Shown in pieces: positions 36,340 to 42,609 of a stretch of 64,000 bases of DNA. Source of the DNA: Microbacterium murale (GTDB lineage Bacteria > Actinomycetota > Actinomycetes > Actinomycetales > Microbacteriaceae); NCBI RefSeq assembly GCF_030815955.1, contig NZ_JAUSXK010000001.1, forward strand, positions 3,844,001 to 3,908,000. The letters run 5' to 3'. The stretch's first letter is position 1. Each line of letters starts with the position of its first letter. The notes beneath the pieces were generated by a model that had not been told where the DNA came from, made no database searches, and saw only the letters and a program-made list of their open reading frames with translations. A program made the translations under genes and the position numbers.

Positions 36340-37392
36340 TCAGTCGTTGATCACCCGCCGCACCCCTGAGGTGAGGCGGGTGATGATCTCTTCGCCGACG
36401 GTGCCGATGCGCTCGGCGAGCGTCGTCGCATCCGATTCGCCCTGAGCACCCGGACCGAACACGGTCGTCGTGTCGCCGGCGCGCGCACCAGACCAGCCAC
36501 GAACCACCGTGCTGGTCGCGTCGATCCGCACGATCTCGCGTGGTCCACCAGGCGAGCCGATGGCCGCACCCGCGAGGACCGACGGAAGCCCGTGGAACGC
36601 TCCGACCCCGATCACGACATCGTCGCCGCGCTCCTCGATGACCTTCGCGCGCAGCGAGGCGATGGGTGCGACGCCCGGAATATCAGGCCCTTCAGCCGAG
36701 CGGATGCCGTAGCAGAAAGCTCCGATCCGACAGACTGTGCCGCGTAGTTCAGGGCGCCACCAGGACGCTGCCGAAGCCGTCAGGTGCAGAGCGTCCGGCG
36801 TCCCGCCGGACGCGCGCAGCACGTCGACCGCATCGCGGAACTCGCGAGCCGACTCATCGTCTTCCGCGTCACTGGCCTCGGCGAGGTGGCTCCACACACC
36901 GACCACTTCGATCAGTCCGGCGCGTTGCGCTGTCATCGCATCGGCGACGACAGCAGGCCAGTCCTCCGGACGGATGCCGTTGCGGTGCAGTCCGGTGTCG
37001 ATCTTCAAATGCACTCGCGCCCTGAGCCCGAGCGTCTCCGACATCTCGATCACGCGACGCAGGTAGCCGGCTTCGCCGATCCCCAGTTCGATGCGCGCGC
37101 TCAGTGCCAGTTCGATCTCTTCGTCACTCGAGGTCGCCCAGCCGAACACCCTGGCGTGCTCGGCCTGCGCACGGATGCGCAATGACGTGTGCACGTCATA
37201 GCCGCCGAACAGCTCGACGGGGCGTTCTGCAGAGACGGCAGCAGCGACCGCCCATTCCACACCGTGTCCGTATGCATCGTCCTTCATCGCGAGCATGAGC
37301 TGCGCGGGGGCGATTCGCTCATGAACGGCGGCCAGATTGCGCACGAAGCGCGACCGCGAGATCTCGAGCGTGGGAGCCATCAGGGCGTCCAT
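36340..37392 (-). CDS. Alanine-racemase-like protein with PLP barrel but no catalytic Tyr
   Basis: The 350-residue protein has the alanine racemase TIM barrel: LMLAMKDDAYGHG with the PLP Lys37, RVHLKIDTGLHRNG with the Arg that in Alr contacts the PLP ring, and a shortened beta-domain. The beta-domain has lost its key residues: where Alr has the SYG tyrosine this protein has GAFHGLPS, and the GRVCMDQ motif is missing. Alone it should lack the second catalytic base. ATG at 37392 (or 37380, which shares its A with the preceding TGA) overlaps the neighbouring racemase-like gene, implying coupled translation. Confidence 0.85.
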   Translation of the reverse strand: MDALMAPTLEISRSRFVRNLAAVHERIAPAQLMLAMKDDAYGHGVEWAVAAAVSAERPVELFGGYDVHTSLRIRAQAEHARVFGWATSSDEEIELALSARIELGIGEAGYLRRVIEMSETLGLRARVHLKIDTGLHRNGIRPEDWPAVVADAMTAQRAGLIEVVGVWSHLAEASDAEDDESAREFRDAVDVLRASGGTPDALHLTASAASWWRPELRGTVCRIGAFCYGIRSAEGPDIPGVAPIASLRAKVIEERGDDVVIGVGAFHGLPSVLAGAAIGSPGGPREIVRIDATSTVVRGWSGARAGDTTTVFGPGAQGESDATTLAERIGTVGEEIITRLTSGVRRVIND

Positions 37393-38072
37393 ATGCGCAC
37401 CGCCTTCGAGCCTGCGACGGTGATGAGCTCCACGATTTCGAACCCGGTGATCTCCGCCCAATTCGCGAGTGCGTTCTGCCCGGCGCCGGTGCCGCCGAAG
37501 TAGAGGACTTCCGCGCCTTCGGTCACGTCCGCCGCGGAGTCCTCGAGGTCGATCACGCACACGTCCATCGCCACTCGCCCGACGATCGGCCGCATCACGC
37601 CGTCGATCTCGACAGTCGCGGCGTTGCCGAGCGCGCGGACGATGCCCTGCGCATAGCCACCGGTGACCAGTGCCACGGTGGTGTCTGCGGTGGCGCGATG
37701 GAGGTAGCCGTAGGAGACGGCTTCTCCGGCATGCAACGGTTTAGTCGAGAGCACCCGACCGACGAGTCGCATCGCCGGAGCGGTTCGAGCGCCGGGAAGT
37801 CCGTAGAGCGTGGCGGTGTCGATGTCCGCACCACCGTCTGTGACGGCGCGGACACCTTCGTCGCGCAGGCGCTCGGCAGTCTCTGCGTCTTCGACCAGGA
37901 CGGCATGGATGCCGGCGTCCTTCACCAGAGCGGCGACTTCACGAACGCCGTGGCCGAGAGCATCGCCGCGCAGGTCGGCGATCTCACCACCCAGCGCCGC
38001 AGCCTCAAGCGCGCCGGCGCGCAGCGCTCCCGCCGAGACGAGTGCGCGAGGAAGGCTCTCTGTCGGCGTCAC
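37380..38072 (-). CDS. Alanine-racemase-like protein with catalytic Tyr domain but truncated barrel
   Basis: The 230-residue protein keeps the Alr C-terminal domain: Tyr121 in GEAVSYGYLH, GGYAQGIVRALGN and the GRVAMD motif (165-170), equivalents of the Tyr', Met' and Asp' that reach into the partner's active site. Its N-terminal part is only about 100 residues and the PLP-lysine position reads ADLRGDALGHG, with Arg35 for Lys, so it cannot bind PLP covalently. The GTG start overlaps the ATP-grasp stop (GTGA) and its own stop overlaps the barrel-type gene. Together the two genes hold one complete set of Alr catalytic residues. Confidence 0.85.
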   Translation of the reverse strand: MTPTESLPRALVSAGALRAGALEAAALGGEIADLRGDALGHGVREVAALVKDAGIHAVLVEDAETAERLRDEGVRAVTDGGADIDTATLYGLPGARTAPAMRLVGRVLSTKPLHAGEAVSYGYLHRATADTTVALVTGGYAQGIVRALGNAATVEIDGVMRPIVGRVAMDVCVIDLEDSAADVTEGAEVLYFGGTGAGQNALANWAEITGFEIVELITVAGSKAVRIWTP

Positions 38073-39100
38073 CGCCTGCTGGCCTCGATCACCGGACGGT
38101 GCCGTGCGCGGCTGCCCGTGCGGATGCCGGTGGCGCTGACACGGGTCTCGTAGAGCCCTGGCGTCCAGTTGCCCTCGATGAGCATCGGGCCGTCAGGGCC
38201 GACAGCGACGTCCCATCCGATGTACGGCACCGTGGGCACTTCCTGGGCTGCACGGGTGACGAGGTCGACGACGCGGTCCCACATGGGGACCTCGAAGTCG
38301 ACGATCGACTTGCCGGAGTCCGGGTGCGTCTCGTAGCGCGACTTGTGCTTGCCGGTGTGGCCCGGCCCGAAGGACTTGCCGTTCTCGTCGATCATCGTGA
38401 AGAAGCCGCCCCAGGTGAACTGGTCGCTCACCGCGCCGCGGCCGAACTTCTGCGCAGCCATCAGCACGTGCACCTTCGAGCCATCGAAGAAGGTAGCGAC
38501 CCGCGTCGTGTTCACCGTGCCCTCGCAGTACTCGGCGAGATACGGATGCTGCACGATGCGCTGTTCGATGAGCCGCTGGCCCTTATCCCGGAGCTCATCG
38601 CGGAACGCGTTCCAATCGGTCACATCGGTGGCCTCATACCGGAAGACACCTTTGCCCTCGCGTCCGACAGGAGTCTTCGCGATGAAGACGGGGTTCTTCT
38701 CGGCGAAGGCGCGCAGGGCATCGGCATCCACCTCGTCGAGGTCGAGCCAGTCACGTCCGAGGTACTCGGCGAAGCGGCGGTTGAAAGTGATCTTGTTCTC
38801 GAACTGCAGCACGTCGGTGCGGTCGTTGAGCGCCTGCGCCAGATGATGCTGGATCAGCGAGGTCATGAACGTCTTGCGCTCGCTCTTCGTCAGCAGCGCG
38901 AAATCGGCCTCGTAGTAGTCGATGTATGCCGTGTCGTGCAGCGCCGCCCATACGAGCATGTCGACGAAGACCTTCGGCGCCCACTTGCCCTGCTCCTTGG
39001 AGATCTGGCTCGCGAACCCCCACACCCGACGTGGATCGAACGAGGTCAGGCGCCGCAGAAGGTACTTCAGGCGCGCAGTGAGTGCGACGTCTCGAGACAA
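38069..39100 (-). CDS. Sugar-transferase-associated ATP-grasp protein
   Basis: The 343-residue protein has the ATP-grasp fold of the ATPgrasp_ST family: FIAKTPVGREGKGVFRYE (ATP-binding strand and Gly loop), LIEQRIVQHP, GTVNTTRVATFFDG and PYIGWDVAVGPDGPMLIEGNWTPG with the metal-binding Glu-x-Asn. Members are thought to ligate an amine or amino acid to a carboxylate in surface-polymer synthesis. The apparent start is TTG at 39100, with GAAAGG 8-9 nt upstream; no better ATG or GTG is near. It is the first gene of a coupled three-gene operon with both racemase-like genes. Confidence 0.85.
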   Translation of the reverse strand: MSRDVALTARLKYLLRRLTSFDPRRVWGFASQISKEQGKWAPKVFVDMLVWAALHDTAYIDYYEADFALLTKSERKTFMTSLIQHHLAQALNDRTDVLQFENKITFNRRFAEYLGRDWLDLDEVDADALRAFAEKNPVFIAKTPVGREGKGVFRYEATDVTDWNAFRDELRDKGQRLIEQRIVQHPYLAEYCEGTVNTTRVATFFDGSKVHVLMAAQKFGRGAVSDQFTWGGFFTMIDENGKSFGPGHTGKHKSRYETHPDSGKSIVDFEVPMWDRVVDLVTRAAQEVPTVPYIGWDVAVGPDGPMLIEGNWTPGLYETRVSATGIRTGSRARHRPVIEASRR

Positions 39101-39183
39101 GAGGAAAGACCTTTCGGCAGGGGCATGTCAGAACGTCTCATGCTACTCGCTCCGCCTGCTCCGGTCCGTTGACAGCCGCGTGT

Positions 39184-39189
39184 TAGCCT
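39184..39189 (+). promoter_or_regulatory. -10 element TAGCCT, probable leaderless start
   Basis: The hexamer ends 6 nt before the GTG at 39196. A TTGACA lies close upstream (39168-39173) but only 10 nt from it, too near to be its -35. Confidence 0.4.
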
Positions 39190-39195
39190 GGGTCG

Positions 39196-40230
39196 GTGGA
39201 TCAGAAGCGGTTGCGTGTCCGGTATCTTTTCGACCGGGCTCGGCGGCTCAATCCGACGCAGCTGATCGAACTGGCGCATCAGGTGAAGAAGGTGTCCAAG
39301 GCACCTCTCCCGATCATCATCGGCGACATGCTGTGGTGCTCCGTGCGCTACGAGATGGGCTTCCGCGACTACGTCGTGTGGGACATCCGCATCCTGAACG
39401 CACGCGAGCGGGCGACCTGGATGACGCACCCCAAGGCCTTCCGGCTGAACCGCACCCTCAACGGGCCGGATTCCAAGGTGATCCTCGGCGACAAGATGCG
39501 ATTCCTCAGCGATTTCGCCGACCTGACCGGCCGCGAGTGGATCGATGCCGCTGCCGCATCCGACGAAGAGCTGCGCGCCTTCATCGACCGGCACCCCCGA
39601 GTGATCGCCAAGCCTGCCGCCGGTGAGGGCGGAGCGGGCATCGGAATCTACGACACCGCCGAGACCGCGGACGTCGCGGCGTGGCGTGCGCTGCTGATCG
39701 AGCGCGACCAGACGCTGCTCGAAGAGGTGCTGGCCCAGCACGAAGATCTGAACGCGCTGTACCCCGACAGCGTGAACACCGTGCGGATGATCACCTACCG
39801 TGACCCGCAAGACGAGTTGCACGTGATCGCCTCCGTGCTGCGCATCGGCAACGGTGCCGTGATCGACAACTTCGCCTCGGGAGGCATGTTCACCATGCTC
39901 GACGACAACGGAGTCGCCCTCTACCCCGGTGTCGACAAGCAGTCGAACATCTACCACCAGCATCCGGCCACCGGCACGACCATCAAGGGCTTGCAGGTGC
40001 CGTTCTACCCGCAGGTGGTCGAAATGATCGCCGACGCTGCGAAGCGGCTTCCGACTGTGCCCTACGTCGGTTGGGACATCGCGATCACACCGGATGGTCC
40101 CGCTCTCATCGAGGCGAACCACAACTCGAGTGTCTTCCAGATGAAGCCCTCGGCGTCCGGCATCCGTACCGGGCTGCTGTACCGGTACCGCGACGCGATC
40201 GGCGCGGACGTGGTCGACAACAAGCGCTGA
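39196..40230 (+). CDS. Second sugar-transferase-associated ATP-grasp protein
   Basis: The 344-residue protein is a paralogue of the divergently encoded ATP-grasp protein. The same landmarks occur in the same order: VIAKPAAGEGGAGIGIYD, LLEEVLAQHEDL, SVNTVRMITYRD and VPYVGWDIAITPDGPALIEANHNS. The Gly loop is richer in glycine here and the C-terminus keeps a similar SGIRTGLLYRY. The two probably act on related substrates, perhaps successive steps of one surface polymer. The start is a GTG. The convergent murJ ends 23 bp from its stop. Confidence 0.85.
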   Translation: MDQKRLRVRYLFDRARRLNPTQLIELAHQVKKVSKAPLPIIIGDMLWCSVRYEMGFRDYVVWDIRILNARERATWMTHPKAFRLNRTLNGPDSKVILGDKMRFLSDFADLTGREWIDAAAASDEELRAFIDRHPRVIAKPAAGEGGAGIGIYDTAETADVAAWRALLIERDQTLLEEVLAQHEDLNALYPDSVNTVRMITYRDPQDELHVIASVLRIGNGAVIDNFASGGMFTMLDDNGVALYPGVDKQSNIYHQHPATGTTIKGLQVPFYPQVVEMIADAAKRLPTVPYVGWDIAITPDGPALIEANHNSSVFQMKPSASGIRTGLLYRYRDAIGADVVDNKR

Positions 40231-40252
40231 GACCGCCCAGCCTCGCGCTGTG

Positions 40253-41842
40253 TCAGCCGCGACGGCGACGCACCGTGTCGATGGCGACCGTGAGTTCCGG
40301 CGCCCGGAACACGGCAAGCAGTCCGATGTAGACCAGCACACTCGTCGCACCGATGAGCGCAGAACCGAGCGCTCCCCAGATCATCCCCTGGAGCATCCAG
40401 CCGTCTGCGCCGCCGGAGGCGAGGAACACTCCCCAGCCCGCCAATCCGGCAGGGATGGCCATGAGGACGAAGCGGCACAATGCCCACCATGTCGCACCGA
40501 GCCCCAGTGGCCCGATCTTGCGGCGCAGCAGAATCGTTGCGATCACCGTCTGCACGATCCCGGAAAGAGACTGCGCGAGCGCGACAGCGGCAGCTAAGTG
40601 CTCTGCCGGAACGCTCGCTGCGACGACGAGCGTCAACACGAGGACCAGAGAACCTTGCACGATCGTGAAGATGAACGGAGTGCGTGCATCGCCGTAGGCG
40701 TAGAAAGTGCGCTGTATGACGAACAGCACCCCCATGGGGACGAGACTCACCAGGTAGGCGATGAGTACTGGCGCCATCGCGCTCGCGTCTTCCGGGGTAT
40801 TGCTGAAGACGCGAGAGGCCGGAACTGCTGCCGCGATGACTGCCGCAGCCGCGATGACGGTGAAGAGTCCGAGGACTCTGATCGATTGCCCGACGTCTGC
40901 TCGCAGTTCACTGTGTCGCTCAGCCGCGGAATGCTCGCTGATTCGAGTGAAGTAGGGCGTTCCGATCGCGAGAATGATCATCGAGTACGGCAGCATGTAG
41001 ACCAGCCAGGCGTATTGCGAAGCCGCTGTGGAGGCGTGCTCGCCGGACGCCGTCGTGATCGTGAGCGACTGCACGATGCCGACCGCTTGGCCGATCAAAG
41101 TCGTGAGCAACGTCCACGTCGCGAGCTTGCCCATGTGCCCCAGCCCCATGCCCCGCCAACGGAAGTCGAGCCGCAACGGGATGCCCGCACGCCGCCAGAA
41201 CAACGTCAGAACGACTGTCTGCGCGATCACACCGAGCGTCGCAGTGCCGGCGAGTACCAGCACCATCGAGCTGTCCCACCCTTCGATGGTGTTGCGATTC
41301 TGTCCGAACAGCACGATGAACACCACGAACCCCGCGATGGAGACGAAGTTGTTGATGATCGGCGCCCAGGCGTAGGGGGCGAACATCTTTCTGGCGTTGA
41401 GGATCTCGCCGAGCAGAGCGAACATGCCGTAGAAGAACAGCTGCGGAATGCACCAGTACGCGAACTGTATCGCCAGAGCGTGCTGCTGCGGCGAGTCGAA
41501 GTTCGAGTACAGGTCGATCAGCAACGGCGCACACAGCGTCGCCACGACAGTGACCGAACCCATGATCAGCGCACCGAGCGTCAACAGCTTTGCGAGGAAC
41601 GCGTGCCCGCTGTCCTTCTGCGTGGCAGCACGCACCACCTGCGGCACGATCACGCCGGTGAGCACTCCGGCTGAAATCACCTGATAGATGCTGTTGGGCA
41701 GTGCATTGGCGACGGCGAACGCGTCAGGTGCGCGACCGACCGAGTTGATCGCGATGACGAGCACGACTGTGCGCAGCAGTCCCGTCAGCCGCGAGGCGAG
41801 CGTGCCCGCCGCGATCATGGCGCTGGCGCGACCGAGTCCCAT
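40253..41842 (-). CDS. murJ: MurJ/MviN-family lipid flippase
   Basis: The 529-residue integral membrane protein has about 14 helices and the MVF-type N-terminus ASAMIAAGTLASRLTGLLRTVVL, with GVIVPQVVRA and the RTFYAYGDARTPF segment. MurJ-type flippases move lipid II across the cytoplasmic membrane. The canonical actinobacterial mviN sits near the origin with trxB, so this may be a second paralogue devoted to another lipid-linked precursor. GAGGGGAAA lies 7 nt before the ATG. It follows the CofE-like gene and faces the ATP-grasp cluster. Confidence 0.85.
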   Translation of the reverse strand: MGLGRASAMIAAGTLASRLTGLLRTVVLVIAINSVGRAPDAFAVANALPNSIYQVISAGVLTGVIVPQVVRAATQKDSGHAFLAKLLTLGALIMGSVTVVATLCAPLLIDLYSNFDSPQQHALAIQFAYWCIPQLFFYGMFALLGEILNARKMFAPYAWAPIINNFVSIAGFVVFIVLFGQNRNTIEGWDSSMVLVLAGTATLGVIAQTVVLTLFWRRAGIPLRLDFRWRGMGLGHMGKLATWTLLTTLIGQAVGIVQSLTITTASGEHASTAASQYAWLVYMLPYSMIILAIGTPYFTRISEHSAAERHSELRADVGQSIRVLGLFTVIAAAAVIAAAVPASRVFSNTPEDASAMAPVLIAYLVSLVPMGVLFVIQRTFYAYGDARTPFIFTIVQGSLVLVLTLVVAASVPAEHLAAAVALAQSLSGIVQTVIATILLRRKIGPLGLGATWWALCRFVLMAIPAGLAGWGVFLASGGADGWMLQGMIWGALGSALIGATSVLVYIGLLAVFRAPELTVAIDTVRRRRG

Positions 41843-41898
41843 GCGTGGTGTTTCCCCTCAGCGCCCGTCGTCAGCGATCAACGTCAGACGGGGCGATC

Positions 41899-42605
41899 TC
41901 AGACGGTGCGGATGATGCCCATCGGCGTGGACTCGCGTCCCTGTCCGAGCGGGTTGTCCTTCAGGATACGCACGAGACGCTGCTCGCCGGCCTTGTCGAG
42001 AGTGGAACCCAGGATGTTCCCACCGAGATCATTGATATCGACCACCGCGACATCGGCCTTGCCGCCGACGAGCGCCTTGAGATGCGTCGCGACCTGGCGC
42101 GGGTTCTTCGGGCCGAGCACGACCGCCTCGTTGTACGGCGGGATGGTGTGCTTCGTCGGACCGTCGATCGCCCGAGCCTTGTCACCGGCGATGCGGTAGA
42201 AGTCGCCCTTGCGACCGAATGCCTTCGTCACCGCTGCGACAGCGGCCGCCAGCAGGATGCGCGGCGTACCGCACTCCCGAAGCGCCATCTCCATCGTCTC
42301 GGGCATGCCGAGGCCGATGCCGTACGGCGTGCGCGTGACGTACTTCGACAGGAACAGCGCCAGCCGGCGCGGCTGGATCTCATCGAGGCGGTAGGAGCGA
42401 CCCTGAGTGATCGCGACGATCTTCTCGGTCACGAACAGCAGGTCCCCCGGCTGCACGGCGTCCTTCGCGTACTCGGTGACGATCTGGTCGATGTCGTCCT
42501 CGGGCATGACGACTCGCGTGCGCAGCGGGATGCGAGCGTACTTCTTGCCGTCGACGTTCGTCTCGAGCGTCTTGCCCTCGTTCGCCTTGCCCTCGTTCTC
42601 CTGGG

Positions 42606-42609
<4 letters not shown>
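41899..42609 (-). CDS. CofE-like F420-0:glutamate ligase family protein
   Basis: The 236-residue protein has the F420-0 gamma-glutamyl ligase fold: [20 protein letters not shown] is the conserved EK-containing strand-turn, followed by [17 protein letters not shown] and [17 protein letters not shown]. The family adds glutamate to a lactyl-phospho-flavin in F420 synthesis, but no other F420 gene is visible here, and stand-alone members occur widely in organisms without F420. The ATG overlaps the sigA stop (ATGA), so it is translated with the sigma factor. murJ follows 56 bp downstream. Confidence 0.8.

Follow-up and report, generated by a model that had tools for sequence, protein, structure and literature searches.

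A split alanine racemase-type gene pair in Microbacteriaceae as a candidate two-subunit racemase for dibasic amino acids of type-B peptidoglycan

We analysed a stretch of 64,000 nucleotides from the genome of Microbacterium murale (4.11 Mb, one contig; NZ_JAUSXK010000001.1, positions 3,844,001 to 3,908,000; hereafter the window), in which two overlapping genes, here called S and L, each encode an incomplete protein of the alanine racemase (Alr) type. A composite active site divided between the two products is strongly supported by the comparison of their residues, and we consider it likely that the pair constitutes an obligate S:L racemase with one such site, derived from a tandem gene pair and acting on a dibasic amino acid for the type-B cell wall. 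The comparison of genomes documented the co-occurrence of S and L, their complementary residues, natural fusions, tandem full-length relatives and a neighbourhood of cell wall genes, from which we infer the assembly of the two chains, their activity, their substrate and the order of events.

Results

Both genes are encoded on the minus strand, with S preceding L in the order of transcription. The L gene (36340..37392, 350 amino acids) encodes a barrel with a complete half-site for pyridoxal 5'-phosphate (PLP), followed by a C-terminal domain without the catalytic tyrosine and the Met-Asp pair. The S gene (37380..38072, 230 amino acids, GTG start codon) encodes a truncated barrel without the PLP lysine and a full Ala_racemase_C domain with the equivalents of the catalytic tyrosine, Arg290 and Met312, and its end overlaps the start of L by 13 bases (37380..37392). 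In the translation of L, Lys37 (codon 37282..37284), the PLP lysine corresponding to Lys39 of the B. stearothermophilus Alr, stands in AMKDDAYGHG, K130 and R137 in KIDTGLHRNG, H169 in WSHLA and R222 in CRIGAF; neither an SYG nor a GRVxMD motif was present in its 350 residues. In that of S, Arg35 (codon 37968..37970) replaces the PLP lysine, Tyr121 (codon 37710..37712), the equivalent of Tyr265', stands in AVSYG, and GRVAMD occupies residues 165-170. The PLP lysine and the catalytic tyrosine of the pair are thus in different chains, the former being found in L only and the latter in S only. From here on, residue numbers are those of the B. stearothermophilus Alr unless a residue of the window proteins is named; this numbering was cross-checked against PMC3485190.

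The Pfam profiles gave the same picture. L matched PF01168 with 125.1 bits over model positions 1-219 of 220, and PF00842 with 23.1 bits, under the cut-off of 25, over positions 70-126 only; S matched PF00842 with 95.7 bits over positions 1-126 of 127, and Pfam returned no PF01168 match for it. Translation and Pfam therefore agree with the coordinates and the residue split described in the initial annotation, which had left the strand of the two genes unstated.

The split was examined in a sample of 150 Microbacteriaceae genomes, from which 60 regions were fetched. These contained 43 split pairs, one L at a contig end, 15 adjacent full-length pairs and one single canonical gene; including the window, the sample holds 44 split pairs, and 44/150 is a lower bound. 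In the family L proteins, Lys39 and Tyr43 were present in 45/45, and Lys129, Arg136, His166, Ser204 and Arg219 in the 44/44 that could be read, one gene being ended by the contig end; Tyr265 was found in none of the 45. Conversely, Tyr265, Arg290 and Met312 were each present in all 44 family S proteins, none of which has Lys39 (31 have Arg) or His166, and position 313 is Asp in 39 and Asn in five. These three residues are among the nine invariant columns of the S alignment (44 rows, 28% mean column identity). The 122 further pairs of the genus Microbacterium, counted as loci only, all fit the split on both the S and the L sides, with Asp313 in 122/122, so that Tyr265, Arg290 and Met312 are kept in 166/166 S genes. 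Such a recurrence, in 43 other family pairs and 122 of 122 genus pairs, places the residue split beyond chance.

Among 149 Microbacterium genomes, L was found in 124 and was missing from 25. S adjoins L on the same strand in 124/124, including genome G248, whose S scored within the canonical range, was accepted through its adjacency to L and is a fusion. This answers the proposal of the initial annotation to look for co-occurrence of the two forms in other genomes. Loci L100-L104 were left out of the counts, as their genomes may already be represented there. The range outside the family was probed by a search from which 80 loci of 518 were kept, and by protein lists of which the best 120 each were used; the closest named loci among the 80 kept were those of Microbacterium spp., with 44-61% identity to L, which places the window in Microbacterium. 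An exact 4-base overlap of S and L was seen in 29/44 family pairs, and S ranged from 160 amino acids, little beyond the C domain, to 389, a near-full degenerate barrel, with starts chosen automatically in both cases.

Against the NCBIfam alr model TIGR00492, L (100.4 bits) and S (88.6) each fall short of the cut-off of 168, which might raise the suspicion of a degenerating alr, a frameshift or an artefact of annotation. We regard such an origin as extremely improbable: open frames, adjacency and invariant residues hold over 167 genomes, the losses lie in opposite genes and the predicted folds are confident. Decay and frameshift were rejected on the conservation of the pair.

In Alr the active site is built at the dimer interface, with the lysine coming from one subunit and the tyrosine from the other (PMC3485190). 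Judged by sequence, S and L jointly hold the whole catalytic set; S would retain what one subunit gives across the interface, and L would have lost what the vanished mirror site required. We propose that S and L form a single PLP racemase, of which each is an obligate subunit, and that they would pack as the subunits of the alanine racemase dimer do, the C-terminal domain of S giving Tyr265', Arg290' and Met312' over the PLP on Lys37 of the L barrel. The mirror-image site of such a dimer would be gone, as S is without a barrel site and L without the completing residues, leaving one composite site per S:L unit.

A different possibility is that L acts alone as a homodimer, using another base, or catalysing a decarboxylation or a one-base epimerisation, with S as a stabiliser or regulator. 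L does keep every barrel residue tested for PLP and substrate, and pseudoenzyme partners, such as the antizyme inhibitors, exist in related folds. A mere scaffold, however, would not need Tyr265, Arg290 and Met312, which are invariant in all 166 S genes, and we consider an L acting alone very unlikely.

The composite S:L site is further favoured by natural single-chain fusions, of which protein searches yielded at least 20: 19 in the order S-L and one, P0104 of Gulosibacter sp. 10, in the order L-S. The S-L fusions measure 601-807 amino acids, except P0129 (487) and P0297 (485), both with a late start. Parafrigoribacterium, Terrimesophilobacter and Pseudoclavibacter are among the names attached to fusions. 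In every fusion (20/20), one half carries the single Lys motif and the other half the single SY[GD] motif. Two Microbacterium loci of the genus sample, L263 and L331, also carry both halves in a single frame. The structure model of a fusion was confident (predicted template modelling score, pTM, 0.91), as were the predicted folds of the window S and the further models, which are Alr-like; by fold the pair belongs to the Alr superfamily (fold type III, barrel plus C domain). Adjacency, complementary loss, 20 fusions and the fold models thus lend support to the initial suggestion of an obligate heterodimer in which the half-sites of the homodimer were divided between two genes. As a separate observation, P0240 joins a full-length racemase with an acidic position 354 to a TsaE domain (PF02367).

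Full-length racemase relatives in tandem were found in 15 family genomes, and these pairs look ancestral to S/L. In the barrel tree, a single clade of 64 tips (approximate likelihood ratio test, aLRT, 99.5; FastTree 0.996) unites L with the L parts of three S-L fusions, the second genes of the tandem pairs and one gene of Curtobacterium. In the C-domain tree, S clusters with the first genes of the tandem pairs and a single canonical gene (aLRT 93). The simplest history would be one in which an alanine-type and an acidic-354 racemase, both full-length and in tandem, underwent complementary loss to give S and L, which were then fused in several lineages. Six of the tandem pairs (L084, L087, L090, L091, L092 and L095) are of a divergent subtype, with Cys129 and Asn313 in the first gene, and SYD together with Gly, Asn or Thr at 129 in the second.

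The history of P0104 appears to be mixed. In its L half, the barrel clusters with two canonical Alr (aLRT 90) and the C domain has a different placement, next to a Corynebacterium gene (85.9); the S half lies within the S clade (93.1), so that S was probably recruited; a wholly independent second origin, which we considered, is only half true. Like a tandem alr pair in Curtobacterium, P0104 adjoins TsaE and TsaB. The assembly of Gulosibacter sp. 10 yielded no canonical alr in a search that did not extend to D-amino-acid aminotransferase, and it may have another source of D-alanine.

The residue at position 354 bears on the substrate. According to PMC3485190, Tyr354 and Tyr265' of Alr impose a tight specificity for alanine; position 354 corresponds to Thr391 in lysine racemase, where docking puts this residue at the side-chain amine of D-Lys, to Ala in Bar and to Asn in VanT. 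In the window L, Glu334 (codon 36391..36393, minus strand) aligns with Tyr354. An acidic residue occupies position 354 in all 43 family L genes that could be read (Asp in 26, Glu in 17); the 122 genus genes all have Glu there, and the second genes of the tandem pairs are acidic at this position in 14/14 readable cases. Tyr354 is therefore replaced, in every readable L, by a residue that could hold an amine, as would be expected of a dibasic racemase; the acidic side chain suggests the binding of a second amino group, and the altered specificity residue makes a substrate other than alanine likely. The probable substrate is a dibasic amino acid, namely ornithine, 2,4-diaminobutyrate or lysine, whose enantiomers the pair would interconvert.

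The window genome contains two further genes with matches to PF01168 and to PF00842 that exceed the cut-off, the first of which is canonical, with the PLP lysine, Tyr265 and Tyr354. The S/L pair is thus the third racemase-like system of this genome. The second gene, outside the window (G000:C1:485864-486925, minus strand), keeps the lysine and Tyr265 and has His at 129 and 354; it lies inside the S clade in FastTree and outside it in the fast mode of IQ-TREE. With these two genes and an acidic position 354, a redundant alanine racemase is disfavoured. It could still be that the S:L heteromer is real and that its substrate is alanine, serine or glutamate, in which case it would be an accessory source of D-alanine or another D-amino acid and not of a wall diamino acid. 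Family membership fits an alanine-type substrate, and P0104, which keeps Tyr354 and occupies the usual place of alr in a genome where no canonical alr was found, indicates that the architecture can probably serve alanine. Unlike P0104, however, every readable L is acidic at position 354, and the window genome already holds the two other Alr-type genes; we judge such a substrate unlikely.

The neighbourhood of the pair is consistent with a product used in the wall. An ATP-grasp gene (ATPgrasp_ST, 38069..39100, minus strand) ends in a stop codon that overlaps the start of S by 4 bases (38069-38072), so that this gene, S and L probably share one operon. A second ATPgrasp_ST gene (39196..40230, plus strand) is divergent and associated with the locus; it is followed by a gene with profile matches to the MurJ-type lipid II flippases (40253..41842, minus strand) and by a CofE-like gene (F420_ligase in Pfam; 41899..42609, minus strand). 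The arrangement of two ATP-grasp genes and MurJ (38069-42609 in the window) also occurs in loci L041 and L050, other loci having one ATP-grasp gene. Microbacterium sufflavum (G157) carries two separate S/L pairs, L199 and L205, with an ATP-grasp gene beside each.

MurT/GatD (28 loci, including L054 with a weak match to it and another to CofE-like) or a CofE-like gene (12) was found near the pair in 40/44 other L-bearing family loci. MurT and GatD of locus L040 were confirmed by Pfam, and MurT_C was not found in the window genome. The two alternatives are mutually exclusive in the genus sample: of the 149 Microbacterium genomes, 120 have a CofE-like gene, 28 have MurT, none has both and one, a 72%-complete genome, has neither; CofE-like is also present in all 25 genomes that lack L. 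In S. aureus, MurT-GatD is responsible for the amidation of the lipid II D-glutamate (PMC3266927 and PMC6113224), and the presence of MurT-GatD or CofE-like near the pair links the locus with the stem peptide. This distribution suggests that the CofE-like gene is a non-orthologous replacement of MurT-GatD in the modification of the D-glutamate of lipid II.

Discussion

Our results point to the product of the pair as a D-diamino acid that would be used for type-B peptidoglycan. Microbacterium walls contain D-ornithine, L-lysine or diaminobutyrate, with D-ornithine in M. testaceum and M. sufflavum (PMC10757982), Gulosibacter walls contain diaminobutyrate or D-ornithine (PMC6113628), and Lacisediminihabitans profunda has a diaminobutyrate wall termed type B1-alpha (PMC7033078). 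S/L pairs are present in M. testaceum and M. sufflavum, and a relative of L is named from Lacisediminihabitans changchengi. L is missing from a genome with an Alr identical to one listed under the name Microbacterium lacticum, a species with an L-lysine wall.

Several points weigh against this interpretation. The correlation with wall type is based on few named species, and Glu or Asp at position 354 could have another role. The M. lacticum-like genome, the sole nameable one lacking L, was recognised by its Alr alone. Four of the 44 family loci (L059, L069, L077 and L097) are without MurT and CofE-like nearby, in two cases over a complete 12 kb region and in two over short stretches. The supports in the C-domain tree are moderate, with 83.5 for the S clade; the S half of the fusion model was built on 19 fused rows, and the alignment for the window S model took in canonical Alr. 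With two other Alr-domain genes in the genome, the pair need not be essential. The initial annotation had held that an intact alr elsewhere, together with a catalytically dead pair, would speak against the heterodimer: other Alr-type genes do exist, but nothing shows that the pair is dead. It had given the same weight to genomes carrying one member only; none of the 124 genomes with L has it alone, but in G249 (68% complete) there is an S-like match and L is missing.

No report of a split or heterodimeric alanine racemase, and no description of the gene source of the D-ornithine, D-diaminobutyrate or D-lysine of type-B walls, appeared among the literature matches listed, a coverage that leaves out most subscription journals. 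On balance, we lean towards regarding S and L as a new hetero-oligomeric family of Alr-type racemases in Microbacteriaceae, which would have arisen by tandem duplication and complementary loss, with one composite site and a D-diamino acid of the type-B wall as product; S would be a portable domain donor, also fused to a canonical-type barrel in the only alanine racemase found in Gulosibacter sp. 10. The occurrence of tandem full-length, half-barrel, nearly C-domain-only and fused forms in one family would offer a readable path from a homodimer through an obligate heterodimer to a single chain. Furthermore, the pair represents a concrete candidate for the supply of D-ornithine, D-diaminobutyrate or D-lysine to type-B peptidoglycan, and places a putative racemase next to enzymes modifying the stem peptide of this same polymer.

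The textbook picture of alanine racemase is that of a homodimer whose active sites are shared. Alr (TIGR00492, PF01168 plus PF00842, fold type III) resembles S/L in its fold, its active-site residues and a site built at the interface, whereas S/L has two genes, one PLP site per pair, no chain with the whole set, and Glu or Asp in place of Tyr354. The VanT serine racemase also has an Alr domain with a changed Tyr354 (Asn), but it is membrane-bound and has the whole site in one chain. The glycine decarboxylase P-protein, split in some organisms and fused in others, has one site per pseudo-dimer; it differs from S/L in being of fold type I, with a different chemistry. Serine palmitoyltransferase (SPT) is likewise of fold type I, and its SPT1 subunit is not truncated in the manner of S. 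Lysine racemase (Lyr) and the broad-specificity racemases (Bar) share with S/L the Alr fold and an altered position 354, and act on dibasic substrates, but they are homodimers with whole sites, and their residue at position 354, Thr or Ala, is not acidic. SPT1/SPT2 is a paralogous PLP heterodimer of eukaryotes with an unrelated reaction. As in S/L, its PLP lysine is in one subunit only, and it presumably has one site; other members of its family are homodimers (PMC6148460).
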